Source: Fibrobacter sp. | Lineage (GTDB): Bacteria; Fibrobacterota; Fibrobacteria; Fibrobacterales; Fibrobacteraceae | DNA: 64,000 nt | Direction of reading: 5' to 3' | NCBI GenBank assembly: GCA_017526585.1 | Contig: JAFXRC010000012.1 | Location: 1-64,000, forward strand | In this document: piece after piece, positions 13,361-29,237 of the stretch | Layout: each line of letters begins with the position of its first letter | How positions within the stretch are numbered: position 1 is the stretch's first letter | Made by a program: the position numbers and the translations under genes | Notes under the pieces: model-generated | What the model saw: the letters and a program-made list of their open reading frames with translations, nothing else | What the model was told of the DNA's origin: nothing | Databases searched by the model: none

Positions 13361-13368
13361 TATCTTTA
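13361..13368 (+). promoter_or_regulatory. TATCTTTA box 4 nt before the ATG of rlmD
   Basis: TATCTTTA-GTAT-ATG: the box ends 4 nt before the start codon at 13373 and no Shine-Dalgarno is present, so the mRNA is probably leaderless. Confidence 0.5.
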
Positions 13369-13372
13369 GTAT

Positions 13373-14596
13373 ATGCAGTTGGAACTCCGTATCGAAAAAT
13401 TGGTGCAGGGCGGCGAGGGCTTTGCTCGACTGCCCGACGGTCGAGCCTGTTTTGTGCAGGGTGCCTTGGCGGGGGAATTTTGCCGTGTTGAATTGACGCG
13501 TGACAAAAAGGACTTTGCGCACGGGAAGCTCGTTAAAATTCTTGAGAGAAGCCCTGATCGAGAAACTCCTAGATGTGCCAATTACAACAAATGTGGCGGC
13601 TGCAGCTTGCAGCATTTGTCTGCCGAAAAGCAGGCTCTGTATTACGAGTCGGTTTCTCGGGAAAATTTTAGACGGCTAGCTCATGCGGATTTACCTGAAA
13701 ATTTTAAAATTCATATGGGTCCCGCATGGGGCTATAGAAACCGTGCCCGCGTGGTGATTTCCCGTGCAAAAGATGGAAAAGTCCGCTATGGGTTCCGTAT
13801 GCAAAAAAGCAACGGTATTATACCGTTCGCAAATTGTCCGGTATTGACGCCTGCTGTTAATGAATTCCTGAAAGCGAACGCTTCCAAAATTTATGAGGAA
13901 TCGGTACAGAACGCAAAACGACCTCCTCGGAATTTTGAACTAGATGTGAATGTGTTTGATAATGGGAACGGCAAGGTCAGCTACTATTATAAGGGGATGC
14001 CAGCAGCTGATTTTGAAAAGAAAGCGGTGAGTGTTGTCGAAATTGCGGGTAAGAAAATCCGTTCAGATGCTTCCGTTTTCTTTCAGAGTAACTTGTCTCT
14101 CTTGCCGGAGCTTGTGTATGCTGTGCAGAATGCAGTAGACGAAGGCATTGCTAGCGGTGAAGCGAGTGACGCCTGGTTGATTGACCTTTTCAGTGGTGTA
14201 GGCTTTTTTGCCGCTATCCTAAAAGATAAATTCAAAAAAATTACGACGGTCGAACGCGACGATGGTTGCCTGAAACATGCCAAGGAGAACCTCTCTGGTG
14301 GCGGAAATGTCGAGAATGTTTCGGCGCCTGCAGAAGATTGGCTTGCAAAGAATGTGGTGGACTGTCCAGCCACTTTGATTGTGGATCCGCCGCGTACGGG
14401 GCTTCCGCCGAGCGCCTTGGATGCCATTGTGAAAAGTTCTGTTAACAGAGTAATCTATGTTTCCTGCGATCCGGTGACGCTTGCGCGAGATTTTACAAAG
14501 TTCCGTGAGGCTGGTTTTTGCCTAAAAAAGGCGGAAGGCTTTGCCTTTTATCCGCAGACGCCGCATTTGGAAATGTTGTTTGTGCTTTCGCGCTAG
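13373..14596 (+). CDS. rlmD: 23S rRNA (uracil-5-)-methyltransferase, RlmD/RumA family
   Basis: 407 residues. An N-terminal TRAM-like domain (LRIEKLVQGGEGFARLPDGRACFVQGALAGE) is followed by a [4Fe-4S] cysteine cluster, CANYNKCGGCSLQHL, near 68-82. The Rossmann methyltransferase has FSGVGFF, the IVDPPRTGL motif, and YVSCDPVTLARD with the catalytic Cys, plus the closing EMLF. These enzymes make m5U in 23S rRNA with SAM; the exact uridine (747, 1939 or both) cannot be told. Start fixed by the TATCTTTA box just upstream. Confidence 0.88.
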   Translation: MQLELRIEKLVQGGEGFARLPDGRACFVQGALAGEFCRVELTRDKKDFAHGKLVKILERSPDRETPRCANYNKCGGCSLQHLSAEKQALYYESVSRENFRRLAHADLPENFKIHMGPAWGYRNRARVVISRAKDGKVRYGFRMQKSNGIIPFANCPVLTPAVNEFLKANASKIYEESVQNAKRPPRNFELDVNVFDNGNGKVSYYYKGMPAADFEKKAVSVVEIAGKKIRSDASVFFQSNLSLLPELVYAVQNAVDEGIASGEASDAWLIDLFSGVGFFAAILKDKFKKITTVERDDGCLKHAKENLSGGGNVENVSAPAEDWLAKNVVDCPATLIVDPPRTGLPPSALDAIVKSSVNRVIYVSCDPVTLARDFTKFREAGFCLKKAEGFAFYPQTPHLEMLFVLSR

Positions 14597-14650
14597 CCGA
14601 AAAATCCTGAAATTTCTAGTTTGTTTAAAGAAAGTTTGATGGAGGCTTGT

Positions 14651-15088
14651 ATGAAAAAATGGATGATGATGCTTTCGTTGGCTCTGCTGGGCCTGCTTTC
14701 GGGTTGCCATGTGGAAAAGACGGCTATCGTATGCGGCAGGGAATGGAACCCCGCCTTGGAAGTGGTCGCGGATACGGCGAGCGAATTCGAGATGAAGGAT
14801 CCGCTTATTGTCCAGTTCCGTTACGGGCAGAACTTTGATTTTGCGAAATTGAAGACGACCTTCTTTGAAGGAACTCTTGCTAATCGCGGTCCTGAAATCT
14901 GGACGCACGAAGTGGCTGTGAGTGAAAAAATGGGTGTCTACACGCTGCAGGGCAAGTCCCGTCGCGGTGGGCTGATGACGGCTCGCGAACTCAGCCGCAA
15001 GAAGGAACCAGGCTCTATTGTCATCGAAGTATCGGGTGACGGCAAGGTTCTCGCCGCAAAACAAATCCTTTTGACCAAGAATCGGTAA
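14651..15088 (+). CDS. small lipoprotein, first of three
   Basis: 145 residues. GGAGG 5 nt before ATG 14651 decides the start. The signal MKKWMMMLSLALLGLLSGC ends in lipobox LSGC. The mature protein is beta-rich (KDPLIVQFRYGQNFDFAKLKTTFFEG, SIVIEVSGDGKVLAAKQILL) and resembles a single Ig-like or C2-like sandwich. A further Cys follows (AIVCGREW). It starts a run with the lipoproteins at 15092 and 16021 at gaps of 2-3 nt, so they are co-translated. Family not recognised. Confidence 0.65.
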   Translation: MKKWMMMLSLALLGLLSGCHVEKTAIVCGREWNPALEVVADTASEFEMKDPLIVQFRYGQNFDFAKLKTTFFEGTLANRGPEIWTHEVAVSEKMGVYTLQGKSRRGGLMTARELSRKKEPGSIVIEVSGDGKVLAAKQILLTKNR

Positions 15089-15091
15089 TTC

Positions 15092-16018
15092 ATGAAATCT
15101 CTATGCCTATGCGCTATCACAGCTGCCCTTGTCCTTGGCGGTTGCGGTGAATCCAAGATTAACGTCCAGTACAAGCTGCCGGAACCTGTCCTGGTGGAAC
15201 TCTATACAGAAGGGTATTTCTCAACCATCGACCTGAAGGGCGACGAAAAGGTGGGCACGAGAACTGCCGCCTATGCGACTCTTGCATATTCCAATGTGGG
15301 GGATACCCTTAAGGTTCACCGCGAATATGTGATGGACAAGTCTCAGGGCTACCTTAAGAACTACATGCCGTCGGAACTTGCGTGGCGCGTGAAGTCCGTG
15401 GATATGACGGCGGTGGACCGCGAAGTGAAAAATGTCGAGGGTCTGGATGCGGGTTATGACTCGCTTTTGGCCCGTATTCCCATGCCCGAAGTCTGGCGCA
15501 AACAGCTCCTGAACCCTGAATACAAGCCGCACCTGAAGCGCCTGGAAAAGCACCGCTGGGAAATGGACCATATGCTTCTAGGAGAAGTCCCGACCAAGGG
15601 GAACATTACACAGATGCTCAAGGACCAGGGACGCCTGAACTTCGCCCTGATCAAGGTGGACTCCGTGGTGGTGAAGGGCTTTGAAAACCGCGACCACCGT
15701 CGCTGCCTGGATTACATTGTCTACTTGCAGGAGACGGAAAGCTTCCCTTACTATATATGGGAGCAGCACGTAAATAGTAACATCGTCCCCGATAAGTTCA
15801 AGAAGTACAACAAGGGGCTCAAGGCGGAATACCAGACCCAGTTCGAGGTGATGATCGACCCGACGACGGGTGTTCCCTGTCAGGAACGCGAAGTGAAGGT
15901 CGGTACGCACACGATGGTGAACCCCGATACCAAGGATACGGCGACCTTCAAGAGCCAGATTACTCTGGAACGCCTTTATACGGTCAAGAAACCTGATGCA
16001 GAGGAACAAGAAAACTAA
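15092..16018 (+). CDS. lipoprotein, second of three
   Basis: 308 residues beginning MKSLCLCAITAALVLGGCGES with lipobox LGGC. The rest is soluble and charged: EYVMDKSQGYLKNYMPSEL, then a helical RIPMPEVWRKQLLNPEYKPHLKRLEKHRWEMDHMLLGEVPTKGN segment, then strands ending FKSQITLERLYTVKKP. The repeated heavy use of Asp/Lys pairs and Trp suggests a periplasmic or outer-membrane-facing scaffold. No known domain recognised. Two bases separate it from the next lipoprotein. Confidence 0.6.
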   Translation: MKSLCLCAITAALVLGGCGESKINVQYKLPEPVLVELYTEGYFSTIDLKGDEKVGTRTAAYATLAYSNVGDTLKVHREYVMDKSQGYLKNYMPSELAWRVKSVDMTAVDREVKNVEGLDAGYDSLLARIPMPEVWRKQLLNPEYKPHLKRLEKHRWEMDHMLLGEVPTKGNITQMLKDQGRLNFALIKVDSVVVKGFENRDHRRCLDYIVYLQETESFPYYIWEQHVNSNIVPDKFKKYNKGLKAEYQTQFEVMIDPTTGVPCQEREVKVGTHTMVNPDTKDTATFKSQITLERLYTVKKPDAEEQEN

Positions 16019-16020
16019 AA

Positions 16021-16473
16021 ATGCGTAAGGTTGCCTACTTATACCTTTTTTCCGTATGCGTGCTTCTGTTGGTGGGGTGCGCATCCCATCCGTCGCCGCA
16101 ACAGACGATGGTGGACGACCGTTATATGGTCTACAAGGAAATGTACAAAGCTTATAGCGAAGCTGAAAAAAATTACCTGAACCTGCTCTTCAACATTGAA
16201 CGCATGCCCGAAGAGGAAGAGCTTTGGATGATGAAGCGCGACCGGATGCTTGAGCTGATGCAGCTTAAGGAATTGATGTTGAACGCCCGTGCGGAACTGG
16301 ATCAGGCGATGCAGGAATGGGAACGCCACATGATTGACCTCCAGGCGGAACAGAAACAGGCTCAGGTGAAGAAATTCAACCCGAATTTTACGGGGAAGGA
16401 TGCTCAGCGGACAAGTCCTGGTCAGCTGCTTCCGGGCGAAGTCAAGCCTAAGCAGAAGTACGGCGAGCTGTAG
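16021..16473 (+). CDS. lipoprotein with helical coiled-coil body, third of three
   Basis: 150 residues. MRKVAYLYLFSVCVLLLVGC is a lipoprotein signal (lipobox LVGC). Residues 30-115 are almost all helical and charged (YKEMYKAYSEAEKNYLNLL, LMQLKELMLNARAELDQAMQEWERHM), with heptad-like Leu/Met spacing that predicts a coiled-coil hairpin. The tail is proline-rich and basic. Together with its two upstream neighbours it may form one envelope complex. Unknown function. Confidence 0.6.
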   Translation: MRKVAYLYLFSVCVLLLVGCASHPSPQQTMVDDRYMVYKEMYKAYSEAEKNYLNLLFNIERMPEEEELWMMKRDRMLELMQLKELMLNARAELDQAMQEWERHMIDLQAEQKQAQVKKFNPNFTGKDAQRTSPGQLLPGEVKPKQKYGEL

Positions 16474-16554
16474 TTGAAATTTTTTTCTGAATTGCTTGCT
16501 TTTTAGAAAAAAAATGTATATCTTATAGAAAAGAGCTTTATTCAGGAGAATCCT

Positions 16555-16677
16555 ATGGGAAAGATCATCAAGTACGTCGCCATTGTCGCCGCATGCATTA
16601 TTTCGGCTTTCGGCGTGTATTGCCTTATTAAGTATTCTTCTGCTGAAGACAAAATCGAGAACAAGTCGGAAGAATAA
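16555..16677 (+). CDS. 40-residue single-pass membrane protein
   Basis: ATG 16555 follows a good ribosome site (CAGGAGAATCCT). The product reads MGKIIKYVAIVAACIISAFG then VYCLIKYSSAEDKIENKSEE. Two lysines precede a 19-residue hydrophobic helix and an acidic/polar tail, the shape of a small inner-membrane regulator or assembly peptide. It has its own promoter-like box (GTATATCTTATAG at 16515-16527) and terminator, so it is a separate transcription unit. No family recognised. Confidence 0.65.
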   Translation: MGKIIKYVAIVAACIISAFGVYCLIKYSSAEDKIENKSEE

Positions 16678-16694
16678 TCACACACGCTTTTCGT

Positions 16695-16733
16695 GAAAGG
16701 AACGATCACTAACAAGTGACCGGTTCTTTTTGT
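16695..16733 (+). terminator. terminator after the 40-residue gene
   Basis: AGGAACgaTCACT-AACA-AGTGAccGGTTCT followed by TTTTG. Two stem blocks with an internal bulge. Confidence 0.7.
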
Positions 16734-16751
16734 TTTAACTAAATTAATCAC

Positions 16752-19565
16752 ATGAATTTCTTAAATAAGAAGCCTGCTTTCTTTGTGGCGCTATCCGCCA
16801 TTTTCCTTGGAATTTTGCTGATCGTGTTCCGCGATTTCGCGTTTGACCCGAATCAGCTCATGCTCAACAGCGACCAGCTGAACGGTATCGGTAGCCGCAT
16901 CTTGCGAGCCGAATCTGCCGTACTCACGGAATGGGACGATTCCCGCCTGGGTGGCGTGCCGACGATCGACGCCTTATTCGCCGACGCCTACCATCCGCTG
17001 GTGTGGGTGCAGTTCCTGATGGACCCGGCCCGCGCTGTGGGCTTCAAGTTCATTCTCACACTGTGGGTCGCCTTCATGAGTGCCATGCTCTTGGCGTGGA
17101 ACCTGACGGGGAACCGCTGGTGGGCGGGACTCCTCGGCATGCTTTACGCTTTTTCGCCGGAATTCTTTACCTACCTGTACGGTGGCCATGACGGCAAGAT
17201 GATGGTCTTTGCGATTGCACCTCTTTCGCTGCTTGCTATCCGCAAGATTGTGCGCTCGGGTAGCATTCCTTACATGATCGTGCTTGCGCTCTCGGTCGCG
17301 TGGATGATTCTCGGTTCGCACCTGCAACTTACTTACTTGTTCCTGTGGGGTGCTGGCCTTTACACGCTTTACGAAGTCGCCTTCCATTGCGATGCCCTAA
17401 AGACTCGCGGCAAGCGCCTTGGCCTTGCTGCGGTGGGCCTCGGTTTTGGCCTTGCGCTTTCTTGCTTCCAGATTGTGCCTCCTTACATGTACACGACAAC
17501 GCAGTCGGTGCGTGGCGATGACAGCCACACCAATTACGGTCATGCGGTCAGCTGGTCGTTGCATCAGGAAGAAATGGCTCAGATTCTGTTGCCGGGCTTT
17601 GTGGGCGTAGACGTTTACGAACAGAACGAAAAGACGGGCAATCTCGAAGGCTCCTCTTTTGTGAATGTGACCATGGACGAATACCGCAGAATGGCGGGTG
17701 GTTCGCCCTTCTATTGGGGACACAACAGCTTCAAGCTCGACCACAACAACGCGGGCGCCTTGCTGACTTTCCTCGGATTCCTTTGCCTGTTCTTGCCGGG
17801 AAAACGTCGCTATGCGACCTTCTGGGGCCTAGGCGCAGTCATCGCCTTGAGCTACGGCATGGGCGACCATTCTCCGCTGTTCAAGTTGTGGTACAATGTG
17901 CTTCCCGGTGTCAAGAACTTCCGCGCTCCGGGCATGGCTCTGTTTTGGTTGCCGCTCTTGCTGGTGATGATGGCGGGTCCAGTTCTCAAGGCTTTCAGCG
18001 ACGTGTTTGCCGCAAAGTCCGCCGAAGAACGCTACGAAGCTGATGCTCTTAAGCGTGCCTTGCTGCATGGTACGGCAATGTATGGCTTGCTGCTGGTTCT
18101 TGCCCTAGTGGCGCGCTTTGCCTGGACGACTTTCATTGGTCCCGTCGGTCTTGTAGTGATGGTGATTTACGCGGTTCTTTGTCTTGGCGTGATGAGTCTA
18201 GACGACCGCGGCAAGCCGTTCAGCGTGGCGAACTTGACGGAAGCTTTCCAGAAGGGACTTCCGGGAACTCCGCGCGTTTTGCAGGCATGCATCTTTATTG
18301 GCTTTGCTTACCTGGGCGTAATGCTCATGAGTGGTCAGAAGCTGCTGCAGGACTCGGTGACGGCGCCGTACTTTAAGCCTCTCAACGAAATTGTGATGAA
18401 CGCTTCGGCAGGGAAGGTGGTGCCCGGCTTTGTGCTGATTCTTCTGATTGTCGCTGCGACCTGGGTCGTGTTTAAGTGGAAGGCCGGAATCCCTGCGAAG
18501 GCATTGGCGCTTGCCATTGCTGCGGGTCTGGATTTGTACTTTATCGATGCGGCGTTTGTACAGAATGTGCCTGCTGCTGAATACTTGCAGCCGAACAACG
18601 CCATTGTGACGGCCATCAAGGCTCCTTACAAGGCTGATTCGCTGAATACGCCGCGCGTGCTGTCGCTTTCACGCAACAAGGCTCTTAGCGGAAACATCTT
18701 CTCGCAGTACCACATGCGCAATGCCGACGGTATCCATGATAACGAACTCGCTTCTTACCGTGCATTCCGTGGCGGTCAGACCGATGCGAATTACCTGATG
18801 AACATCAATGACCCCGAAGCAGCACATCCGTTCCTCGACTTGATGAATGTGGGCGCAATCATTTTCGATAGCCGCCAGGGGACGACCTACATGCCGATTC
18901 CGACGGCGATGGGCGAGGCTTACCTCTACGGCGAAGCCGTCGTGATGGATGACGATGCAGCGATTAAGACGCTGCAGACTCAGGCGGCGATTCGCCCTTC
19001 GACAAGCTCTGGGACCTTAGCTGAACCGGTGGCAGAACCCGCCGCTGAACCGGCTGCGGACTCCGCTGTAACGGCTTCTGCAGACAGCGCTGTTGTTGAT
19101 TCCGCAAGTGCCGAAGCTGCGAAACCAGCCGCTATCGCTGCTCCTGAATTTGGCGACGAACCGGGTAAGTTTTTCTACAAGGAAAAAGTTATTTTGTCCG
19201 AAACTCCTGAATTCGATGGCAAGGGTAGTGTGGCGGCAAAGGGACCGATTCAGGGCTTTGCAAAACTTGTCGCCAGCCCGAAGATGGACACGCAGGTGTT
19301 CAATGTGACGGCTGACCGCGCAGGTTTCATGGTTGTTGCCGGTAACTATCACCCGTACTGGAAGGCTTATGTGAACGGCAAGGAATCTAAGGTTTACAAG
19401 GCTTTCGGAACTTTGCGCGCTGTGCAGATTCCGGCTGGCAATTCCGAAGTCCGCATGGAATACCGCAGCGCCCCGTTCCACAAGACCGTTTGGGTGAGTT
19501 TGGTTGCCGCCGTGCTGCTGGTTGCTCTCGGTGCAGCCGCTGCTGTGCGCTGCCGCAAGAAGTAA
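16752..19565 (+). CDS. YfhO-like polytopic membrane protein
   Basis: 937 residues with about a dozen hydrophobic helices over residues 10-600 and a final one near 915. LSDQLNGIGSRILRAE and GGHDGKMMVFAIAPLSLLAI suit the GT-C-fold YfhO/DUF6541 group, in which some members attach sugars to cell-wall or surface polymers at the membrane. Residues about 610-890 form a large extracytoplasmic domain (GFMVVAGNYHPYWKAYVNGKE is the typical YfhO C-terminal strand motif). That domain is interrupted at about 748-790 by a low-complexity RPSTSSGTLAEPVAEPAAEPA linker that starts with a genomic repeat sequence. The specific substrate is unknown. Confidence 0.7.
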   Translation: MNFLNKKPAFFVALSAIFLGILLIVFRDFAFDPNQLMLNSDQLNGIGSRILRAESAVLTEWDDSRLGGVPTIDALFADAYHPLVWVQFLMDPARAVGFKFILTLWVAFMSAMLLAWNLTGNRWWAGLLGMLYAFSPEFFTYLYGGHDGKMMVFAIAPLSLLAIRKIVRSGSIPYMIVLALSVAWMILGSHLQLTYLFLWGAGLYTLYEVAFHCDALKTRGKRLGLAAVGLGFGLALSCFQIVPPYMYTTTQSVRGDDSHTNYGHAVSWSLHQEEMAQILLPGFVGVDVYEQNEKTGNLEGSSFVNVTMDEYRRMAGGSPFYWGHNSFKLDHNNAGALLTFLGFLCLFLPGKRRYATFWGLGAVIALSYGMGDHSPLFKLWYNVLPGVKNFRAPGMALFWLPLLLVMMAGPVLKAFSDVFAAKSAEERYEADALKRALLHGTAMYGLLLVLALVARFAWTTFIGPVGLVVMVIYAVLCLGVMSLDDRGKPFSVANLTEAFQKGLPGTPRVLQACIFIGFAYLGVMLMSGQKLLQDSVTAPYFKPLNEIVMNASAGKVVPGFVLILLIVAATWVVFKWKAGIPAKALALAIAAGLDLYFIDAAFVQNVPAAEYLQPNNAIVTAIKAPYKADSLNTPRVLSLSRNKALSGNIFSQYHMRNADGIHDNELASYRAFRGGQTDANYLMNINDPEAAHPFLDLMNVGAIIFDSRQGTTYMPIPTAMGEAYLYGEAVVMDDDAAIKTLQTQAAIRPSTSSGTLAEPVAEPAAEPAADSAVTASADSAVVDSASAEAAKPAAIAAPEFGDEPGKFFYKEKVILSETPEFDGKGSVAAKGPIQGFAKLVASPKMDTQVFNVTADRAGFMVVAGNYHPYWKAYVNGKESKVYKAFGTLRAVQIPAGNSEVRMEYRSAPFHKTVWVSLVAAVLLVALGAAAAVRCRKK
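18993..19023. repeat. extragenic-type repeat embedded in the YfhO-like reading frame
   Basis: CGCCCTTCGACAAGCTCTGG followed by GACC. It encodes RPSTSSGT, the telltale translation of a repeat normally found between genes. An Ala/Pro/Glu-rich, repetitive stretch follows directly. It appears to have been inserted in frame and tolerated in a linker. Confidence 0.5.
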
Positions 19566-19781
19566 TTAATTGACGCGTTCGCCTTTGTTGTTCGTTCCAG
19601 GTTTTGCCTTTGCGAAATAGAGCGCGCACGGAACGACGATGCATGCCGCATAGCACAGGCTGATGACGGTGTCGAAGCTTTCGCTTTCGGTAAGCGATGC
19701 GGGCAGAAGAAGGCTGCTGATGAGTTTTAGCGCTGCTGCGACAAGAAGTCCGACAATGATTCGTGCGATGATTTTGCTCAT
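19566..19781 (-). CDS. small two-helix membrane protein
   Basis: 71 residues from ATG 19781 (MSKIIARIIVGLLVAAALKLISSLLL). A second helix lies at SLCYAACIVVPCALYFA, and the tail is basic. An upstream in-frame start would extend it to 87 residues but adds a polar stretch before the first helix. Its stop immediately abuts the end of the convergent YfhO-like gene. No ribosome site is obvious. The coding case rests on the helix pattern. Function unknown. Confidence 0.5.
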   Translation of the reverse strand: MSKIIARIIVGLLVAAALKLISSLLLPASLTESESFDTVISLCYAACIVVPCALYFAKAKPGTNNKGERVN

Positions 19782-19849
19782 GCCAAGAATGTAGCTTTTC
19801 TTGGGTGCAGTCAGGGACCGCGTCAGCACGAAATTACTAAATTAGGGGC

Positions 19850-21292
19850 ATGAATATCCGAATTTCTGCGATTGCATTAGCTTGCCTGGTGGGAATTGCC
19901 GTTAGTGCCGACCCCAGGATGGAACAGGGTGCCCGTTTTGAGGCGAAGGGTGAATTTGAAATGGCGCTTGGTGAATACCGCGCGATTCTTGCCGAGAACC
20001 CGAAGAGTGCCGAAGCCTATTTTGCCGCGGCCCAAGTTCGCATGAAGATGAAGGATTACAGCGGGGCGCTTGCCAACTACCGCCTTGCTTACAAGTTTGA
20101 ACCCACGATGAGTGCCGCCTACGAAGGTGCCGCCAAGGTGTACGAAGCCCTGGGACAGAAGGCGAAGGCTGAGGTTGAACGTGCGAAGGATCCGAAGAAC
20201 AATCCCGTTGCTGAGACTCAGGCGGAAGCTCCTGCAGCTGTTGCGGAAGCCCCGAAGGCAGAACCGGCTCCTGCTGCGCCTGTAGCCGAGGCTCCGAAGG
20301 CTGAACCTGCTCCGGAGACAAAACCGGTTGAAGCGGCAAAGCCTGAACCGAAACCCGTCGAAACTGCCAAGGTGGAAAAGGCTGCTGAGCCTGCTAAGGT
20401 GGAACCGGCGAAGACCGAAACCAAGGCTGCGGAACCCGCAAAGGCAGAGCCTGCGAAAACGGAGACTGCTCTTCCGACGGATCCGTTTGAAAAGGGCAAG
20501 GCTCTCTATGCTGAAGGCAAGTATAAGGAAGCTGCTCCGATGTGGCGTGAAGTGTTGCGCAAGCAGCCGGGACACGCCGGTGCGTATTTCTACGCGGGTC
20601 TTACCCGTTACCAGCTCGGCGAAATGGACAAGGCCGAGTTCAACCTGAAGAAGGGTCTTGAATACAAGGAAGAAGGTAACGACGCGAACTTCTTCTTGGC
20701 AAAGATCGCACAGAAGGCCAACAAGCAGGATCAGGAACTCAAGTTCCTTGCTGCCTATATGAAGAAGGCTGCTCCTGGCGCCAAGTACCGTGCCGCCGCC
20801 GAAGAACGCATTGCCGAAATCAAGGCGGCAAAGGAAGCGAAGAATCAGCCGGCTGCAGAAGCGGCTCCGGCAACCGAAACGGTCGCAAAGACTGAAACGA
20901 AGGCTGTGGACGCTGCTCCGGCACAGGACGCGAGGACTGCTCCGGCAGAAGTTGCTGCAGCTCCTGTTGCAGACATCGCAGACGCCCCTTCCAGCACTCC
21001 GACGCTTGCCAATGCGAACTTGCTTTACAGCGCCGGTAGTATTGAGTCTGCCGTCAAGATGTACAAAGCATTGCTCGAAACGGAACAGCAGCCTGAAGAA
21101 CGCTACTTTACCATGTTGCAGCTGGGGAATGCTTATCGTGAACTCCGCGACTTCCACAGTGCCGTGGTGCGTTACCGCGAAGTGGTGCAGCAGTTCCCGG
21201 ATTCTGACTGGGCTGCCGAAGCCGAACGTGCACTCGAAGATGCCGTGTGGCTCGAAAAGCATGCTTCTGAGTTGCCGCGCAGAACGAGATAA
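19850..21292 (+). CDS. secreted TPR protein with Ala/Pro/Glu/Lys-rich linkers
   Basis: 480 residues. Signal peptide MNIRISAIALACLVGIAVSA. Two or three TPR units lie at 25-110 (GEFEMALGEYRAILAENPKSAEAYFAAA type). A low-complexity APKAEPAPA linker runs from about 120 to 205 and a second TPR block covers 212-300 (EGKYKEAAPMWREVLRKQPGHAGAYFYAG). Another linker (about 320-380) precedes a final TPR/YbgF-like block (RELRDFHSAVVRYREVVQQFPDSDWAAEAERAL). The architecture is a periplasmic protein-interaction scaffold spanning distance with disordered linkers. Partner unknown. Confidence 0.7.
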   Translation: MNIRISAIALACLVGIAVSADPRMEQGARFEAKGEFEMALGEYRAILAENPKSAEAYFAAAQVRMKMKDYSGALANYRLAYKFEPTMSAAYEGAAKVYEALGQKAKAEVERAKDPKNNPVAETQAEAPAAVAEAPKAEPAPAAPVAEAPKAEPAPETKPVEAAKPEPKPVETAKVEKAAEPAKVEPAKTETKAAEPAKAEPAKTETALPTDPFEKGKALYAEGKYKEAAPMWREVLRKQPGHAGAYFYAGLTRYQLGEMDKAEFNLKKGLEYKEEGNDANFFLAKIAQKANKQDQELKFLAAYMKKAAPGAKYRAAAEERIAEIKAAKEAKNQPAAEAAPATETVAKTETKAVDAAPAQDARTAPAEVAAAPVADIADAPSSTPTLANANLLYSAGSIESAVKMYKALLETEQQPEERYFTMLQLGNAYRELRDFHSAVVRYREVVQQFPDSDWAAEAERALEDAVWLEKHASELPRRTR

Positions 21293-21378: not shown

Positions 21379-21405
21379 TGTAGTGGGTAAGGTATGGAGT
21401 TGAAT

Positions 21406-22932
21406 ATGAAGTATTTAAATGTGCTCGCTTTGCTTGCGGTGTCTTTCGCGTTCGCCGACCCGCCGTCGAATTTTAGCGGTTGGGAAAAGGTATTCGAAGA
21501 CAATTTCGACGGCACAAGCCTTGACAAATCCAAATGGAACCCGACTTACAACTGGGGCCCCACTCACAACCACCGTGCCTATTGCGCCGAAGAGAACGTG
21601 ATTGTCTCTGATGGTACGCTCAAACTTAAAGGCGAAAAGAAAACGCATCCTGATGCTAAGGGAAGAACGGCGAAGTTCAACGGCAAAGAAATTCCGGTGG
21701 ACTACACTTCGGGTGCCATCGACACCAAGGGCAAATTCGAAGTCAAGTACGGCTACATCGAAGGCCGCTTCAAGGCTCCGTCGCAAAAGGGAACCTGGCC
21801 TGCGTTCTGGACGCTGCAAGACGGCTGGCCTCCCGAAATTGACATCTTGGAAATTCCCGCTTCGCGTAAGCAGCACCATTACTACTTGCATTACACGGAT
21901 CCGAGCTGGTATAGCAGCCATGGCTCGGCATGGGATCACGAAGCTTCCTTCGGCGGTCATAAGGATGACGACGTGGACCGTTCCGCAGGATTCCATAACT
22001 ACGGCGTGGAATGGGACGAAGGCACTCTCAGCTTTTACTTTGACGACAAAAGATTTGCAAGTTACAACCGCCCGACTGAAATCAAGCAGCTTGCGGCGCA
22101 GTACATTATCGTGAACCTGGCTATTGGCGGCTGGGCTGGCGATGACATTGATATTACGACTGACAAACCTGCCTACTTTGAGGCGGACTGGGTGCGCGTG
22201 TGGCAAGCGAAACCCGCAAAGCCAGATACGGTGCGTATCATGTCGATGAACTTTGGCACGTGCATGGTTAGAACTGCAGAAGACAAGCTTGCTCTTGGCG
22301 ATTGCAATTCCGATGCTGCCGTCGTAACGATCACTCCGCTTTCTTCGACGACATACCGCATCAACTTTGGTGACATGTCCATTGACACTCCGAACGAATC
22401 GACCGATGCCGGCATTACCATGGGGCTTTACAAGTGGAACGGTGGCGGACACCAGAAGGTTGTGATGGAAAAACAGTCCGGCTACGAAGGCTCCGTGGTG
22501 CGCATGAAAATGCAGCACAGCAGCATGTACTTACGTGCAACGACGGATGGCGAGCGCGTGGTGCAGAGCTGGGCCGATGACTGGGAATGGAACCAGATGT
22601 GGCGCCTGCTCGGCAAGGACGATGTTGTTCCCTCGAAGGATACGACGAAGAAAGATACGTCTATAACGGACACCGGTAAGACTGCGCTCGGCAATTTTGC
22701 TCTTGTGTACGGGACTTCGGTGCATTATGCGGACAATCGCTTGTTCGTAGAACTCGGCAGTAGCTTTGTGAATGGAGCGAATGTGCGGATCCTTGATTTG
22801 CAGGGGCGCGAAGTTATACGTAAACAGGCTACGCACACGGCTGCATTTGATGTGTGCTCCCTTGCTTCGGGAATGTACCATGTGGTGGTGCAAAATAAAA
22901 ACCGCACGGATATCCGGCGGTTCAAGAAATAA
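21406..22932 (+). CDS. secreted GH16 endo-beta-glucanase with trefoil-like and T9SS-like domains
   Basis: 508 residues. GGAG 6 nt before ATG 21406 decides the start (an ATG at 21394 is in frame). Signal peptide ends AFA-DPP. The catalytic domain (about 24-270) has normal, non-permuted order, unlike the circularly permuted Fibrobacter lichenase. Its active site is EIDILEI: Glu144 nucleophile, Asp146, Glu149 acid/base. The ExDxxE spacing is that of laminarinase-type GH16, so beta-1,3- or mixed-linkage glucan is likely. Residues about 275-410 look like a beta-trefoil (ends QSWADDWEWNQMWRLL). The final 80 residues (VRILDLQGREVIRK, LASGMYHVVVQ, RRFKK) resemble a type IX type-A sorting domain. Confidence 0.9.
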   Translation: MKYLNVLALLAVSFAFADPPSNFSGWEKVFEDNFDGTSLDKSKWNPTYNWGPTHNHRAYCAEENVIVSDGTLKLKGEKKTHPDAKGRTAKFNGKEIPVDYTSGAIDTKGKFEVKYGYIEGRFKAPSQKGTWPAFWTLQDGWPPEIDILEIPASRKQHHYYLHYTDPSWYSSHGSAWDHEASFGGHKDDDVDRSAGFHNYGVEWDEGTLSFYFDDKRFASYNRPTEIKQLAAQYIIVNLAIGGWAGDDIDITTDKPAYFEADWVRVWQAKPAKPDTVRIMSMNFGTCMVRTAEDKLALGDCNSDAAVVTITPLSSTTYRINFGDMSIDTPNESTDAGITMGLYKWNGGGHQKVVMEKQSGYEGSVVRMKMQHSSMYLRATTDGERVVQSWADDWEWNQMWRLLGKDDVVPSKDTTKKDTSITDTGKTALGNFALVYGTSVHYADNRLFVELGSSFVNGANVRILDLQGREVIRKQATHTAAFDVCSLASGMYHVVVQNKNRTDIRRFKK

Positions 22933-22945
22933 GGATGTTGCAATG

Positions 22946-22976
22946 AAAAACGCCTCTCTGCGGAGAGGCGTTTTTT
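22946..22976. terminator. bidirectional terminator between GH16 gene and rlmI
   Basis: AAAAA-CGCCTCTC-TGCG-GAGAGGCG-TTTTTT: a perfect stem with A and T runs on both sides, serving both convergent genes. Confidence 0.85.
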
Positions 22977-22986
22977 GCGAAAGGTC

Positions 22987-24180
22987 TTAGATGACTTGAA
23001 CGAGTAAGCCCTTCAGGTACTGGCCTTCGGGGAATGCCGTATTCACGGGGTGGTCGGCGGGTTGGCCGAAGCGTTCAATGATTTGAACGCGCCGTCTCGC
23101 ATCGGCGGCGGCATCCGCGATAATCTTCTGGAACAAGTCCATTTCCATAAGGCCCGAGCAGCTAAACGTCGCGAGCATGCCGCCTTCGGCCAAGAGCTTC
23201 ATGGCGAGCAGGTTGATGTCCTTGTAGCCGCGGGCACCCTTCTGCAGATTGTCCTTGCTTTCCACGAACTTGGGCGGGTCCAGCACGATAAGGTCGAAGG
23301 TCTCGGCCTTGTCGCGGCACTTGCGCAGATACTGGAACACGTCGGCTTCCACATGGGTGGCGTGGGCGGTGCTGAGCTTGTTGCGCATGATGCCTTCCTT
23401 GGCGAGCTTGAGCGCGTCTTTGGAAACATCCACCTGATAAACTTTTTCGCAACCGCCGCGGAGAGCGTAGAGACCGAATCCGCCGGTATAGCAGAAGCAG
23501 TTCAGCACCTTCTTTCCCTTGGAAAGTTCACCGATGCGACGACGGGCGTCGCGCTGGTCCAGGTAGTATCCGGTCTTGTGGCCGTTCTTTACGTCGATGG
23601 GGAAGAGGATTCCGTTTTCGTTAATGATGACCGGTTCGTCGGGCACTTCACCGTAAACGCATCCGGTGCGCAGCGGCAGGCCTTCTTTTTTGCGCACGTC
23701 GGAATCGCAGCGTTCATAGATGCCGCGACAGTGCGTCTTTTCGGCCAGCAATTCGTAAATGTCTTTGCGGTGGACTTCGGCGCCAGCGGCCAAGATTTCG
23801 ACAGAATAGATGTCGGCGTACTTGTCGATGATGCAGCCTGGAATGCCGTCGTTCTCGGCGTTAATCAGGCGGAAGGCTGATTCCTTGTCTTCGATGTCAA
23901 AGCCTCGGCTCTTGCGTGCGGCGATCGCGCGGTCGAGCAAGTCGCTAAAGAATTCGCGATCGATGTTTGCCTTTTCGCCGAACGTCCAGAAACGCCCGCG
24001 GATCTGGGACTTGGGCGAGTACGCCGCAAGACCCAGAAAATCGCTCTTGTAGCTGTAAACTTCAACGGTGTCGCCAAGTTCCGGGTCGCCGATGACTTCG
24101 TCAACGGCTCCGCTAAAAATCCAAGGGTGGTAACGCAGTGCGGACTTTTCGCGTCCGGCTTTCAAAGTAATCGCTTTCAT
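22987..24180 (-). CDS. rlmI: 23S rRNA (cytosine-C5)-methyltransferase RlmI-like
   Basis: 397 residues. An N-terminal PUA-like domain (ALRYHPWIFSGAV, GDTVEVYS) leads to a class I methyltransferase with DVKNGHKTGYYLDQRDAR, NCFCYTGGFGLYALRGG, DPPKFV and a TFSCSGLM motif holding the catalytic Cys. E. coli RlmI makes m5C1962 in 23S rRNA. Start ATG 24180 is preceded only by CTATATTTACCCTC, with no ribosome site, suggesting a leaderless mRNA. Divergent from vanZ-like with 62 bp between the starts. Confidence 0.88.
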   Translation of the reverse strand: MKAITLKAGREKSALRYHPWIFSGAVDEVIGDPELGDTVEVYSYKSDFLGLAAYSPKSQIRGRFWTFGEKANIDREFFSDLLDRAIAARKSRGFDIEDKESAFRLINAENDGIPGCIIDKYADIYSVEILAAGAEVHRKDIYELLAEKTHCRGIYERCDSDVRKKEGLPLRTGCVYGEVPDEPVIINENGILFPIDVKNGHKTGYYLDQRDARRRIGELSKGKKVLNCFCYTGGFGLYALRGGCEKVYQVDVSKDALKLAKEGIMRNKLSTAHATHVEADVFQYLRKCRDKAETFDLIVLDPPKFVESKDNLQKGARGYKDINLLAMKLLAEGGMLATFSCSGLMEMDLFQKIIADAAADARRRVQIIERFGQPADHPVNTAFPEGQYLKGLLVQVI

Positions 24181-24185
24181 GAGGG

Positions 24186-24193
24186 TAAATATA
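24186..24193 (-). promoter_or_regulatory. TATATTTA box 5 nt before rlmI ATG
   Basis: Minus strand CCCTGCAG-GTTAC-TATATTTA-CCCTC-ATG. Box to ATG is 5 nt and there is no Shine-Dalgarno. The CCCTGCAG lead-in recurs before murB. Confidence 0.5.
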
Positions 24194-24226
24194 GTAACCT
24201 GCAGGGAGCCTACTTGTCTATTATTC

Positions 24227-24234
24227 TATCTTTG
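24227..24234 (+). promoter_or_regulatory. TATCTTTG box 8 nt before the vanZ-like ATG
   Basis: TATCTTTG-GCGCCACG-ATG. It matches TAnnTTTG and continues GGCGC like the tRNA and rpsP promoters. Start so close that the transcript is probably leaderless. Confidence 0.55.
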
Positions 24235-24242
24235 GCGCCACG

Positions 24243-24671
24243 ATGTTTGAAAGCGTATTCGACAAATACCCCTTCTTTAGAGCCGTCCCCTGCGTGCTTT
24301 GTATGGCAATCATTTTCAAGCTGTCATCGCTCACGATGGAGCAGCTGGAAGATTTTCCGCATGTCTGGGACAAGCTGGCGCACTTCTGCGAGTATGCGAC
24401 GCTTGCCGGCTGCTACGCGATGCTTTGGACTCGGGGAGAATGGTCTAAGCGCCAGTGGCTGCGCGTGCTGGTAGTGGGCGTGCTTGCGCTTGCTTATGGT
24501 TGCACCGACGAATACCACCAGAGTTTCGTTGAAACTCGCGATAGCAGCGTGCTCGACTTGGTGGCGGACTTGACGGGTGGACTCACGGGCGGCATTGTTT
24601 ACGCCATTGTCACGCGGATTTTGAATCGCTATGACCCGGTGCCGGAAAAACAGTCCTCCGTAGAAGACTAA
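24243..24671 (+). CDS. VanZ-family membrane protein
   Basis: 142 residues with four hydrophobic segments. The family motifs are visible: WDKLAHFCEYATLAGCYAML (D-K-x-x-H-F-x-x-Y) and YGCTDEYHQSFVETRDSSVLDLVADLTGG (D-E-x-H-Q-x-F-x-x-x-R-x-x-x-x-D). VanZ-like proteins are inner-membrane proteins of poorly known function; the teicoplanin link applies to one plasmid member only. Its stop codon overlaps that of convergent murB by 4 nt. No ribosome site, leaderless-type start. Confidence 0.82.
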   Translation: MFESVFDKYPFFRAVPCVLCMAIIFKLSSLTMEQLEDFPHVWDKLAHFCEYATLAGCYAMLWTRGEWSKRQWLRVLVVGVLALAYGCTDEYHQSFVETRDSSVLDLVADLTGGLTGGIVYAIVTRILNRYDPVPEKQSSVED

Positions 24672-25576
24672 AATTCCCCAAGCAGTATGATTTCGCGGTG
24701 TAGTTTAATGCCGAATTTCTCGGCGACTTTCTGCTGTACAAATTCGCTTAATTGCTTGATGTCGCTTGCGGTTGCGCCGCCTGCGTTCACGATGAAGTTG
24801 GCATGCACGGTGCTGACTTCGGCGCCACCGATGCGGTAGCCCTTGAGCCTTGCTTGTTCAATGTAATAGCCCGGTGCGATTTGCGTGGGTGTGTCGGCAG
24901 CTCCAGCGGAAAGGCGTTTGAAGGTGGAACCAGCATTTGGCATATTGAGAGGCTGTGTTGCTTTGCGCTTCGCCATACATTCGGCGAGTTCCGCTTCGAG
25001 GTCGACGACCGTCTTGTCGAGACTCGCTGCGGTCGGCAATTGGAATGTCGCCGAGAGAATGGTCGCGTTGATTTGCTGGAAAAAACTTTTCCTATACCCG
25101 AAGGCGCAGTCGGCGTTGGAGTATTCGCGAATGTTTCCGTCGCTGTCAAGAACGGTTACCACTGTACAGTAAGTTCCGATTTCTTGCCCATAGGCGCCCG
25201 CATTCATGTAAATTGCGCCGCCCAAGGTTCCGGGAATTCCGGCGAGCTTATGGATGCCTGCAAAACCTTGCTTGAGTACGCTGCGGGCGAACCTGCCGAG
25301 TGGAACGGCTGCTCCAACTTTGAATGTTCCGCTTCCAAGATCTTCAATCGAAGAAAACTCTCCGGCAAGTGTTATGATCACGCCGTTGAATCCTTTATCC
25401 GAGACAAGTAGATTTGTTCCGTTCCCTAAAACAAAGTAGGGAAGTCCCTTTTCGCGGGTCAAGCCGAAAGCTTCTTTGAGGTCGTCCTGGCTGTCCACTT
25501 TCGCAAAATAGCGTGCGGGGCCCCCCACCTTAAAGGAGGTGTGCTTGCTCATGGGCTCGTTTTCAAGGATTTGCAT
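24668..25576 (-). CDS. murB: UDP-N-acetylenolpyruvoylglucosamine reductase MurB
   Basis: 302 residues. FAD-binding motifs SKHTSFKVGGPARYF and LGNGTNLLVSD, then AGIPGTLGGAIYMNAGAYG and GYRKSFF, then MPNAGSTFKR with the catalytic Ser, and VHANFIVNAGGATASDI. It reduces UDP-GlcNAc-enolpyruvate to UDP-MurNAc in the cytoplasm. Start ATG 25576: an in-frame TTG at 25582 lies inside the TATATTTT promoter box, so translation begins at the ATG. The short length and GYRKSFF loop suit a type IIb enzyme. Ends overlapping vanZ-like. Confidence 0.93.
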   Translation of the reverse strand: MQILENEPMSKHTSFKVGGPARYFAKVDSQDDLKEAFGLTREKGLPYFVLGNGTNLLVSDKGFNGVIITLAGEFSSIEDLGSGTFKVGAAVPLGRFARSVLKQGFAGIHKLAGIPGTLGGAIYMNAGAYGQEIGTYCTVVTVLDSDGNIREYSNADCAFGYRKSFFQQINATILSATFQLPTAASLDKTVVDLEAELAECMAKRKATQPLNMPNAGSTFKRLSAGAADTPTQIAPGYYIEQARLKGYRIGGAEVSTVHANFIVNAGGATASDIKQLSEFVQQKVAEKFGIKLHREIILLGEF

Positions 25577-25580
25577 GTGC

Positions 25581-25588
25581 AAAATATA
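25581..25588 (-). promoter_or_regulatory. TATATTTT box 4 nt before murB ATG
   Basis: Minus strand CCCTGCAG-AAAC-TATATTTT-GCAC-ATG with no ribosome site. Close copy of the rlmI arrangement. Confidence 0.5.
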
Positions 25589-25631
25589 GTTTCTGCAGGG
25601 TTGAAGTGTTTTCTGGAAGGGGTGTAGTTTC

Positions 25632-25639
25632 TATTATTC
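25632..25639 (+). promoter_or_regulatory. TATTATTC box 6 nt before the CHC2/TOPRIM gene
   Basis: TATTATTC-CTTCAA-ATG. A weaker match than the others but the same spacing and also without a Shine-Dalgarno. Confidence 0.35.
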
Positions 25640-25645
25640 CTTCAA

Positions 25646-26764
25646 ATGACTGCTGAAGAACTGAAACAATTCAAGGCGGCGATTTCGATAACTGCTGTCG
25701 CCCAGAATCTAGGCCTAAATGTGGAACGCGGACGCTTTCGGTGTTTCTTTCCGCAGCGTCATGCCCATGGGGATCAGACTCCATCTGTATCCATTTCCGA
25801 AGAGCGCGGAACATTCCGTTGCTGGGTATGCGACGATGTTCGTGGCGATGTGATTTCTCTGGTGCAGATTGCAAAGAGCTGCAGCTTTACGGAGGCGTTG
25901 AGCTGGCTCATGGAACAGTACCCGTTCCTGGTGCCGCCTTCAGCACGTAAGGAAATGACGCGGCTTGCGGCTCGTTCAGCCAATTCCGCACCCCAGTCCC
26001 GTTCCCGTGTCGAAGCACCGGTTGTAGAAATCGCTCCGCCGCCAGCCCCCGAAGAAGTTCCGCTGGTGAGCGAAGATGAACGTAAGAAAATCATCTTGTC
26101 GTTCCTGAAGCGACTTTCTCCTGTCGATGACACTCCCGCAGCGAAGTGGCTCACGCGCCGTCGCATCTACAAGCCCGTCTGGGACAAGATGCTCTTGCGT
26201 ACCATCACGAATTACGAAGCGGTGAATAAAAGTCTCAAGGCGGATTTTGGCGAAGAAGTTCTCAAGTATGTGGGGCTCTTCAACGATAAGGGCCACTTAC
26301 GCTACTATAAGCACCCCCTGATTTTCCCGTATCTCGACACGCTACGAAGGTCCTTCTATTTTCAGGCACGGGCAATCGACAATACCGTTGTTCCGAAGGA
26401 ACTCAATTTGCGCGGAACGGTGCCGTTCCCGTACAACCTGTCAGCGCTCGACCAGAAACCGGGGTGGGTGTACCTTTGCGAAGGGGTGGTTGATACGCTC
26501 ACCTTCCTGGGGCAAAAAATTACCGCCGTTGGGATTCCTGGCGTACGTAGCTTTAAAGTCGAATGGCTGAGCTATTTTAAGGGGAAAAATGTGGTGCTTT
26601 GCCTGGATCATGACGAAGCGGGCCGTTCTGGTATGGAATATATCGGCAAGTTGTTTACGCAGGCGGGCATCCATAATGTAATTTTGGGCGAAGGTATGGA
26701 AAACCTGCCGACCGCGATGAAGGAAGGCGAAGATATCAACGACTGGTTCGGAGGAAAGAAGTAG
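25646..26764 (+). CDS. CHC2 zinc-finger/TOPRIM primase-like protein
   Basis: 372 residues. A CHC2-type zinc ribbon is at 30-75: Cys33, His39/His41, then Cys59 and Cys62 in RCWVC. A linker (100-145, Pro/Glu-rich) leads to a DnaG-like region and a TOPRIM domain with Glu279 (YLCEGVVDT) and the DxD pair Asp321/Asp323 (CLDHDEAGRSG). All metal ligands are present, so RNA-primer synthesis is chemically possible. It lacks the DnaG C-terminal helicase-binding domain, and the main dnaG is presumably elsewhere. Such stand-alone proteins are common in phages and plasmids, but no mobile genes surround it. Its stop overlaps the start of the GT51 gene by one base. Confidence 0.75.
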   Translation: MTAEELKQFKAAISITAVAQNLGLNVERGRFRCFFPQRHAHGDQTPSVSISEERGTFRCWVCDDVRGDVISLVQIAKSCSFTEALSWLMEQYPFLVPPSARKEMTRLAARSANSAPQSRSRVEAPVVEIAPPPAPEEVPLVSEDERKKIILSFLKRLSPVDDTPAAKWLTRRRIYKPVWDKMLLRTITNYEAVNKSLKADFGEEVLKYVGLFNDKGHLRYYKHPLIFPYLDTLRRSFYFQARAIDNTVVPKELNLRGTVPFPYNLSALDQKPGWVYLCEGVVDTLTFLGQKITAVGIPGVRSFKVEWLSYFKGKNVVLCLDHDEAGRSGMEYIGKLFTQAGIHNVILGEGMENLPTAMKEGEDINDWFGGKK

Positions 26765-27657
26765 TGGACAAGGTGAAGTTGTATTTGGATAAGGTGAAGC
26801 GTTTTTTCAGGTGGTTTGCAAACACCACGTTTGCGAAGGTCACTGGGTTTATCTTCAAGTGGCTGTACCGGACCATCAACTTTATCATTCGCCAAGCCTT
26901 GTTGATTCTGATCATCTATTCGGCGGTATTTTCGGTGGCGGCATCCTATGCGCTCTACCGTGCCTTTATCTATGGTTATGATATCTACGATGGGGTGGCG
27001 CAGCTCAAGGATGCCCAGCCCGAAATGAGCAAGTACATGGAAGCCCTGCAGGATTCCAGTCCGAATATGCAAATCAAGCACACCTATGTTCCGCTTGATT
27101 CCATTAGTCCCTACTTGCGCAAGGCGGTGATTGCGAGCGAAGATGCCGGTTTCTATTTCCATCCGGGTTTTGATATTCGCGCTATTGCAGAGGCTCTCGA
27201 TGCCAACCAGGTGGCGGGCAAGACCAAGTTCGGTGGATCTACGATTACTCAGCAGCTTGCAAAGAATTTGTTCCTGAGTGGCGAACGTTCGTTCAACCGC
27301 AAGTTCAAGGAACTTGCCTATGCGCTCTTGATGGAACACGAACTGGGCAAGGACCGCATTTTGGAACTTTACCTGAACTACGCCCAGTGGGGAAAGGATA
27401 TTTTCGGCTGCCAGGAAGCGTGTCTTGCTTACTATAAGAAGAGTTGCTCCAAGTTGAGCGTGGACCAGGCAATCAACCTGGCGGCGATGCTTGCAAGTCC
27501 TGGAAAGCACCACCCGAACATGCGCGAGAGCCAGTTCATGGCAAAACGCCGCGCGGTCATATACCAGAATATGTTCCCCAAGAAGGACAGCGTCCTTGTG
27601 GATTCGCTCCGCCAGCTGATGGCGCCTCCTCCCAAGGATTCAAGCGTCGCAAAGTAG
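26764..27657 (+). CDS. mtgA: monofunctional peptidoglycan glycosyltransferase (GT51)
   Basis: 297 residues from GTG 26764, which overlaps the preceding TAG. A long basic N-terminus (to about 35) leads to one transmembrane helix (QALLILIIYSAVFSVAASYAL). The GT51 motifs follow: IASEDAGFYFHPGFD with the catalytic Glu, GGSTITQQLAKNLFLS, then RKFKELAYALLMEHELGKDRILELYLN. It polymerises lipid II into glycan strands on the periplasmic face. No transpeptidase domain. The N-terminal extension before the helix is longer than in E. coli MtgA. Confidence 0.9.
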   Translation: MDKVKLYLDKVKRFFRWFANTTFAKVTGFIFKWLYRTINFIIRQALLILIIYSAVFSVAASYALYRAFIYGYDIYDGVAQLKDAQPEMSKYMEALQDSSPNMQIKHTYVPLDSISPYLRKAVIASEDAGFYFHPGFDIRAIAEALDANQVAGKTKFGGSTITQQLAKNLFLSGERSFNRKFKELAYALLMEHELGKDRILELYLNYAQWGKDIFGCQEACLAYYKKSCSKLSVDQAINLAAMLASPGKHHPNMRESQFMAKRRAVIYQNMFPKKDSVLVDSLRQLMAPPPKDSSVAK

Positions 27658-27663
27658 GACTTT

Positions 27664-28071
27664 CTACAAAGCCGTTACGACAATTTCCCTCTCGGTTTCC
27701 GAGAGGATTTTTATTTCGATTTTATGCGTGATGCCGGGATCGTTGTCTTCGATGCGCTCCGGCCATTCAATCAAGCTGATTCCTTTTTCAAGGTAATCTG
27801 GATCGAGCCCGACTTCGTAGAGGTCGGCTCCGCCTTCGAGACGGTAAAGGTCGAAGTGGAATATGGGCGGATCGTTCGGGTATTCGTGCAGTATGGTGTA
27901 GGTGGGGGAGCAGACTGCACCCTCGAAACCCAGCCCCTTACAGACGCCGCGGCTGATGACGGTCTTTCCGGCTCCAAGATTGCCAAATAGCGCCACCTTG
28001 TCGCCCGGCTTTAGGGTGCGTCCAAATTCGACGGCCCAGTTATAAGTCTCTTCTTCGCTGTGGAAAAGCAC
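27664..28071 (-). CDS. tsaE: tRNA t6A biosynthesis ATPase TsaE
   Basis: 135 residues. Walker A GNLGAGKT near 29-36, SPTYTILHEY switch region, FDLYRLEGGADLYEVGLDPDYLEKGISLIEWPER: the complete TsaE signature. With TsaB, TsaC and TsaD it makes N6-threonylcarbamoyl-adenosine at tRNA position 37. Start GTG 28071 lies one base after the nspC stop, so it is translated from the same mRNA. Confidence 0.93.
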   Translation of the reverse strand: MLFHSEEETYNWAVEFGRTLKPGDKVALFGNLGAGKTVISRGVCKGLGFEGAVCSPTYTILHEYPNDPPIFHFDLYRLEGGADLYEVGLDPDYLEKGISLIEWPERIEDNDPGITHKIEIKILSETEREIVVTAL

Positions 28072-28072
28072 T

Positions 28073-29224
28073 TTACAGCTTCTCCTTGAACTGCTCGTAA
28101 GTAAACTTGTGCAACAAGTGGAATTTACCGCTTTCGTCGAACTTGCCGATGCTCGGATGGCGTACCCCGTTGAAGAACGTGGTCTTCACCATGGTGTAGT
28201 GGATCATGTCCAAAAAGATGATCTTGTCGCCGACCTTGAGAGGTTCGTCAAACGAGAAGTCTCCGAGCTGGTCGCCAGCTAAGCAGGAATTTCCGGTTAG
28301 TTTGTATGTATACTTCTTTTCGTCAGGCATACCAGCACCAATTACGGCAGGGCGGTACGGCATTTCGAGACAGTCGGGCATGTGCGCACTGATAGATACA
28401 TTCAAGATGGCGATATCCATCTCGTTATGCACGATGTCGCCGACAGAAGCAACTAGTTCGCCGGTCTGCCAGCCGACGGCTTCGCCCGGTTCCATAATGA
28501 CGGTGAGGTGCGGGTAGCGGCTGTGGAAATCATTCAGGATGCGTACGAGTTCTTCGCGGTGGTAATCCTTGCGGGTAATGTGGTGTCCGCCGCCGAAGTT
28601 CACCCATTTCATTTGGGGCAGGTATTTGCCGAAGTGCTGCTCGAAAGCCTTGAGCACGCCTTCCAGTGCATCGGCGTCCTGTTCGCAGAGGGCGTGGAAG
28701 TGCAGCCCCTCGATGCCGTCCAAGAGTTCCGGTTTGAACTCCGCCTCGGTGACGCCTAGTCTTGAGAACTTTCCGCATGGATTGTACAGGTCGGTCTCGA
28801 CGGTGGAAAACTGCGGGTTTACCCGGATGCCTGCGCTGACTCCTGCGGCCAAGGTTTTCTCTTTAAAACGGGTCCACTGGCTAAAACTGTTAAAGGTGAT
28901 GTGCCCAGCACAGGCTAAAATCTGGTCGATTTCGTCATCTTCGTAGACGGGGGCAAAAACATGGACTTCCTTGTCCATTTCTTCTTTGGCGAGTCTCGCT
29001 TCGTTTAGGCTGGAAGCGGTTGCTCCGGCAAGGTACTGTCTGATGAGCGGAAAACTGCGCCAGAAGCTGTAGCCTTTCAGGGCGCAGATGATTTTGACAT
29101 TCCCGCGCTTCTGGATATCGTCTAAAATTTCCATGTTGCGGCGGAGTCTAGTCTCGTCCAGCACAAAACAGGGGGACGGAACCTGCGTATAATCGAGCGG
29201 ATTGCCTAAAGAAATGTTTTCCAT
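28073..29224 (-). CDS. nspC: carboxynorspermidine/carboxyspermidine decarboxylase NspC
   Basis: 383 residues from ATG 29224. An in-frame ATG at 29263 lies upstream of the promoter box and is rejected. Fold III PLP decarboxylase: Lys in CALKGYSFW binds PLP, HFHALCEQD and NFGGGHHITRKDYH contact substrate/phosphate, EPGEAVGW binds PLP, and SCLAGDQLGDFSF is the cysteine-containing segment from the partner subunit. It decarboxylates carboxy(nor)spermidine in the alternative spermidine pathway. The partner dehydrogenase is not in this window. Confidence 0.92.
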   Translation of the reverse strand: MENISLGNPLDYTQVPSPCFVLDETRLRRNMEILDDIQKRGNVKIICALKGYSFWRSFPLIRQYLAGATASSLNEARLAKEEMDKEVHVFAPVYEDDEIDQILACAGHITFNSFSQWTRFKEKTLAAGVSAGIRVNPQFSTVETDLYNPCGKFSRLGVTEAEFKPELLDGIEGLHFHALCEQDADALEGVLKAFEQHFGKYLPQMKWVNFGGGHHITRKDYHREELVRILNDFHSRYPHLTVIMEPGEAVGWQTGELVASVGDIVHNEMDIAILNVSISAHMPDCLEMPYRPAVIGAGMPDEKKYTYKLTGNSCLAGDQLGDFSFDEPLKVGDKIIFLDMIHYTMVKTTFFNGVRHPSIGKFDESGKFHLLHKFTYEQFKEKL

Positions 29225-29229
29225 GTGCC

Positions 29230-29237
29230 CAAAGATA
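29230..29237 (-). promoter_or_regulatory. TATCTTTG box 5 nt before nspC ATG
   Basis: Minus strand GG-TATCTTTG-GGCAC-ATG. Exact TAnnTTTG match; probable leaderless transcript for nspC-tsaE. Confidence 0.55.

Follow-up and report, generated by a model that had tools for sequence, protein, structure and literature searches.

Leaderless gene classes have been predicted in many bacteria (PMC3160421, PMC9581028), and a survey of one such class, the TA-led genes, was published by Zheng et al. in 2011 (PMC3160421). In those genes a −10-like box (TANNNT) lies ~10–12 nt ahead of the start codon, in excess over shuffles and without a Shine–Dalgarno (SD) site, while SD-led genes stand alongside. The class that we describe here in Fibrobacter shares each of these properties; unlike the TA-led box, however, the Fibrobacter box is of TTT type and is found again, within one genome, at a spacing that leaves a leader. 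A second point of comparison is the sigma-A promoter of Bacteroidota (TAnnTTTG at −7; PMC7366714, PMC9723704), whose T-A-n-n-T-T-T core is nearly identical to the Fibrobacter box and whose −35/−33 partner is likewise weak or unseen; for example, F. johnsoniae too yielded no −33 TTTG (PMC7366714). In Bacteroidota, leaderless transcripts are rare and SD sites generally absent: the start map of B. thetaiotaomicron gives ~3.7% of 5′ UTRs below 10 nt (PMC7366714), and that of F. psychrophilum 5.5% of mRNAs as leaderless (PMC9723704). In Fibrobacter, by contrast, the box lies on the ATG of at least 15% of divergent genes, and SD sites are in use. Mycobacterium tuberculosis and Deinococcus, as cited in PMC9581028, likewise have a large leaderless class beside SD-led genes, with ATG and some GTG starts. 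Those lineages are unrelated to Fibrobacter, and their leaderless transcriptomes are measured whereas the one here is predicted. PMC9581028 also describes GeneMarkS-2 as predicting leaderless transcription in a set of genomes. Our literature search, which reached neither supplements nor most subscription papers, returned no transcription-start map or leaderless report for Fibrobacter, although the GeneMarkS-2 survey may include a Fibrobacter genome; the text of the 2011 survey names no Fibrobacter or Fibrobacterota. The class is thus of a kind known in other bacteria and apparently undescribed for Fibrobacterota.

We propose that Bacteroidota-like sigma-A boxes are placed on the ATG of many Fibrobacter genes, so that leaderless mRNAs would arise alongside a second class that is leadered and in part SD-led, and we put the probability of this reading at roughly 0.87. 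The word leaderless denotes here a prediction made from the position of the box, and it covers either strictly no leader or one of 0–4 nt. In molecular terms, TATnTTT would be the −10 element of Fibrobacter housekeeping promoters, its preferred form, C-TAT[A/C]TTT, being near the Bacteroidota box TAnnTTTG. In a large gene class, this element would sit 5–6 nt ahead of the start codon; RNA polymerase, starting ~7 nt past the −10 hexamer, would then begin the mRNA at the A of ATG or within 1–4 nt of it, and ribosomes would recognise the 5′-terminal AUG. Both the transcription start and the AUG-dependent entry of the ribosome we infer from general knowledge of leaderless mRNAs. Genes in operons, or with the box 22–33 nt upstream, would instead have leadered mRNAs, their own or shared ones, and a GGAG-type site is present in about half of these mRNAs. 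What can be read directly from the genomes is the position of the box, its restriction to first genes and its conservation together with the ATG.

The window, i.e. the whole 64,000-nt stretch of Fibrobacter DNA that was analysed, contains the loci from which this proposal arose (Table 1). A first-pass annotation had listed six TATnTTT boxes before ATG codons, and all six are present, with the qualification that the box of the CHC2 gene reads TATTATT. The gaps that it gave for rlmD, rlmI, the VanZ-like gene, murB, CHC2 and nspC (4, 5, 8, 4, 6 and 5 nt) are each one smaller than the true values of 5, 6, 9, 5, 7 and 6 nt. It had also pointed out that rlmI and murB share CCCTGCAG upstream; the sharing is real, but only 2 of 59 boxed genes have this sequence and relatives do not keep it, which speaks against a shared element.

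Table 1. Boxes and the genes that they precede in the window (gap, nucleotides between the last T of the 7-mer and the start codon)
Feature	Position	Strand	Gap or predicted leader	Basis or remark
TATCTTT box	13361..13367	+	gap 5 to rlmD ATG 13373	
rlmD-like (TRAM + U5-methyltransferase)	13373..14596	+	predicted leaderless	ORF call, Pfam
TATATTT box	24187..24193	-	gap 6 to rlmI ATG 24180	
rlmI-like (PUA + methyltransferase)	22987..24180	-	predicted leaderless	ORF call, Pfam
TATCTTT box	24227..24233	+	gap 9 to VanZ-like ATG 24243	
VanZ-like gene	24243..24671	+	predicted leader ~0-4 nt	ORF call, Pfam
TATATTT box	25582..25588	-	gap 5 to murB ATG 25576	
murB	24668..25576	-	predicted leaderless	ORF call, Pfam
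TATTATT box	25632..25638	+	gap 7 to CHC2 ATG 25646	departs from TATnTTT
CHC2 zinc-finger/Toprim gene	25646..26764	+	predicted leaderless	ORF call, Pfam
TATCTTT box	29231..29237	-	gap 6 to nspC ATG 29224	
nspC-like PLP decarboxylase	28073..29224	-	predicted leaderless	start from relatives, Pfam
TACATTT box, within CTACATTT	29280..29286	+	gap 6 to ATG 29293	missed by the first-pass annotation
Ala/Pro-rich ORF (304 aa), back to back with nspC	29293..30207	+	predicted leaderless	

Pfam domains agree with the gene names at the six boxed loci, and the starts chosen by the ORF caller and by the first-pass annotation coincide at five of the six genes. The exception is nspC, whose protein is up to 95% identical to proteins of Fibrobacter succinogenes MAGs and for which the caller picked an in-frame ATG at 29263; relatives support 29224 as the more probable start. 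The nspC match places the window in Fibrobacter, and genomes assigned to that genus show similar behaviour. The ATG at 29263, which lies upstream on the minus strand, is preceded by AAAGGA and is not generally conserved in relatives; a start there would yield a longer, leadered form of nspC in this genome. Before the divergent neighbour of nspC, CTACATTT or a close form of it is kept ahead of the ATG in relatives, and the window therewith holds three back-to-back pairs (rlmI/VanZ, murB/CHC2 and nspC/29293), each with two boxes in an intergenic region of 62–69 nt. The VanZ-like gene, judged by its longer gap, may have a leader of ~3–4 nt. Elsewhere in the window, the genes for a YfhO-like protein (16752), a TPR protein (19850), a DHDPS-family protein (45879, minus strand) and RuvC (59123) carry CTAAATTA, CTAAATTA, CTACATTG or TAATTTT near the start and are possible weaker members of the predicted class. 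Some first genes in the window lack both a clear box and an SD site, and an Rfam search of the window gave zero matches.

To place these loci in a wider frame, we turned to the genome that contains the window (2.85 Mb, 81% complete), of which 1.19 Mb, including the window, was analysed; a self-trained coding model blind to upstream signals called 850 ORFs in it. Genes were divided into those first in their unit (divergent or far-spaced, n = 484), and those internal to operons (n = 228), with divergent genes (n = 262) also counted by themselves. Chance was gauged with 200 dinucleotide shuffles, with a reversed pattern and with a mis-spaced pattern (gap 11–12). In the 1.19 Mb, TATNTTT stands at a gap of 4–9 nt before 47 of the 484 first-of-unit genes, against a shuffle mean of 4.1 and a maximum of 10. 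In this sample the distances from box to start, of the kind that the first-pass annotation had suggested computing genome-wide, peak at 5–6 nt, the commonest gap at first-of-unit genes; they then fall into a valley at gaps 10–16 (2 observed, 4.8 expected) and rise to a second peak at gaps 22–33 (34 observed, 7.9 expected). Additionally, TATMTTTN{5,6}ATG occurs 141 times genome-wide, compared with 15 for the reversed pattern and 29 at gap 11–12.

How large might the class be? An EM fit on divergent genes recovers the motif C-TATATTT, in which the final G of TAnnTTTG reaches only ~30%, and predicts ~33% of these genes to be leaderless; the exact 7-mer alone gives ~15% after background. On tandem and operon-internal genes the fit did not converge on the box motif, the internal one drifting to a purine-rich pattern, and for this reason only the figure from divergent genes is used. 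Upstream of the box at 53 genes, neither a −35 partner nor a TTTG at ~−33 emerged clearly. Divergent gaps of 60–100 nt hold boxed starts most often (15 of 40 in the 1.19 Mb sample), suggesting compact back-to-back promoters; an excess of doubly leaderless pairs over independence was not significant (p = 0.31 with the exact box, 0.054 with a loose one).

Might the box instead act on the ribosome? Genomes of the FCB group have been described as having AT-rich non-canonical ribosome sites (PMC9581028, PMC3160421), and the distance from box to ATG is similar to that of a ribosome-binding site; the box could accordingly be an AT-rich, non-SD element within a longer leader, acting through S1 binding or as an unstructured start region, as proposed for that group. 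Such an element should be present whatever the position in the operon. Inside operons, where a gene depends most on a ribosome site, the box occurs in only 6 of 228 cases, compared with 41 of 262 divergent genes, and GGAG-type sites show the reverse trend, being often found at operon-internal genes. Because the box is rare precisely where GGAG-type sites are often used, we regard it as a promoter element rather than a ribosome site. Moreover, the same 7-mer peaks again at 22–33 nt, where a ribosome-binding role is impossible, and its sequence keeps closely to T-A-n-n-T-T-T, which goes beyond mere richness in A+T. A ribosome-binding element is therefore an improbable account of the box.

The distribution of SD sites fits the proposed leaderless class as well. 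An SD site accompanies the box at 0 of 53 boxed genes but at 34 of 67 genes with the box 17–45 nt away, a difference that is consistent with leaderless starts and is not proof of them, since box and SD site compete for the same place. At the six starts of the first-pass annotation, GGAG, GAGG and AGGA are absent in range, in keeping with its statement that none has a ribosome site, and the geometry there largely excludes an SD site. The 3′ end of the 16S rRNA of two congeners (...GGATTACCTCCTTT) has an intact anti-SD. Together with the SD sites of other genes and the leadered population with its box ~22–33 nt upstream, this supports the earlier suggestion that two translation modes coexist.

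A different objection is that the boxes are ordinary −10 elements and that the true start codons lie downstream, giving normal leaders. Start calls are generally uncertain, and in murB, for example, another in-frame ATG follows 24 nt downstream; conservation nevertheless makes this objection more improbable still. The ATG of murB, CHC2 and rlmI varies hardly or not at all, and codons 2–8 differ mostly at third positions, which shows that these starts are translated. The box itself is found at a gap of 4–9 nt from the homologous start in 28 of 30 relatives for murB, 28 of 29 for nspC, 25 of 29 for rlmI, 16 of 30 for CHC2 (accepting TATNATT or TANNTTT) and 10 of 30 for rlmD, the box of the latter two being kept in only part of the genus; other segments of equal width in the same alignments hold it in 0–3 relatives on average. 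Most box bases of murB vary by 0–7%, and the bases of CTAnATTT before rlmI mostly by 4–8% (n apart), compared with 35–65% for most bases that flank the rlmI box. The VanZ-like gene has CTAnnTTT at a gap of ~9 nt in many relatives and lacks it in some, and murB outside the genus is mostly without a box at the homologous start.

Downstream starts are also opposed by the way in which the box tracks starts that have moved. Several rlmD orthologues with N-terminal extensions of 26–41 codons have CTATCTTT or CTATTTTT immediately ahead of the new ATG, and the N-terminus of nspC differs among species with the box still attached to the ATG. Where rlmI closely follows another gene, in genomes G017 and G065, it has lost the box and has GGAG upstream. 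Some other extended rlmD orthologues (L110–L118) lack both a box and an obvious SD site at the start, and these may represent a third mode, non-SD leadered or coupled. Chance matches in intergenic DNA of ~60% A+T are refuted by the controls, the boxes being about eleven-fold above dinucleotide shuffles, five- to nine-fold commoner than reversed or mis-spaced patterns, and conserved in relatives. The leaderless class put forward in the first-pass annotation is thus upheld, as a prediction from sequence, by the sharp peak of box-to-start distances, the restriction to first genes, the lack of SD sites and the joint conservation of box and ATG, moved starts included.

The excess at gap 5–6 is seen throughout the genus and the family, and also in other families of their class. 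Two genomes of the same order have 72 matches at gap 5–6, against 0 reversed and 6 at gap 11–12; ten genomes of family f3 have 342 against 35 and 107. In most other members of the phylum the excess is weak or absent. No box was seen at the ATG of nspC in Bacteroidales, Campylobacterota and others, or in most of the termite-gut Fibrimonadales sampled. The nspC genes of Bacteroidales and Paludibacter (L289, L302 and L316) have ATCTTTG or TATCTTTG ~30 nt before the ATG, a position at which, unlike in Fibrobacter, the Bacteroidota box leaves room for a leader.

A broader and rather doubtful extension would be that Fibrobacteria have two lineage-wide translation classes set largely by gene layout, back-to-back genes tending to be leaderless and those in operons SD-led, and that a gene changes class when it is rearranged; the leaderless class could then be controlled as a group, e.g. 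by the ratio of initiation factors 2 and 3, by stress or by antibiotics. The orthologues of rlmI would offer a natural example of one gene whose mode differs between an operon and a stand-alone setting. Fibrobacter is a major genus of cellulose degraders in the rumen; should many of its promoters start transcription at the ATG, a leaderless class would have to be allowed for in gene-start annotation, in expression vectors and in the antibiotic effects that are predicted. Set beside Bacteroidota, a leaderless class in a lineage with SD sites in use bears on how modes of translation start have been swapped within the FCB group.
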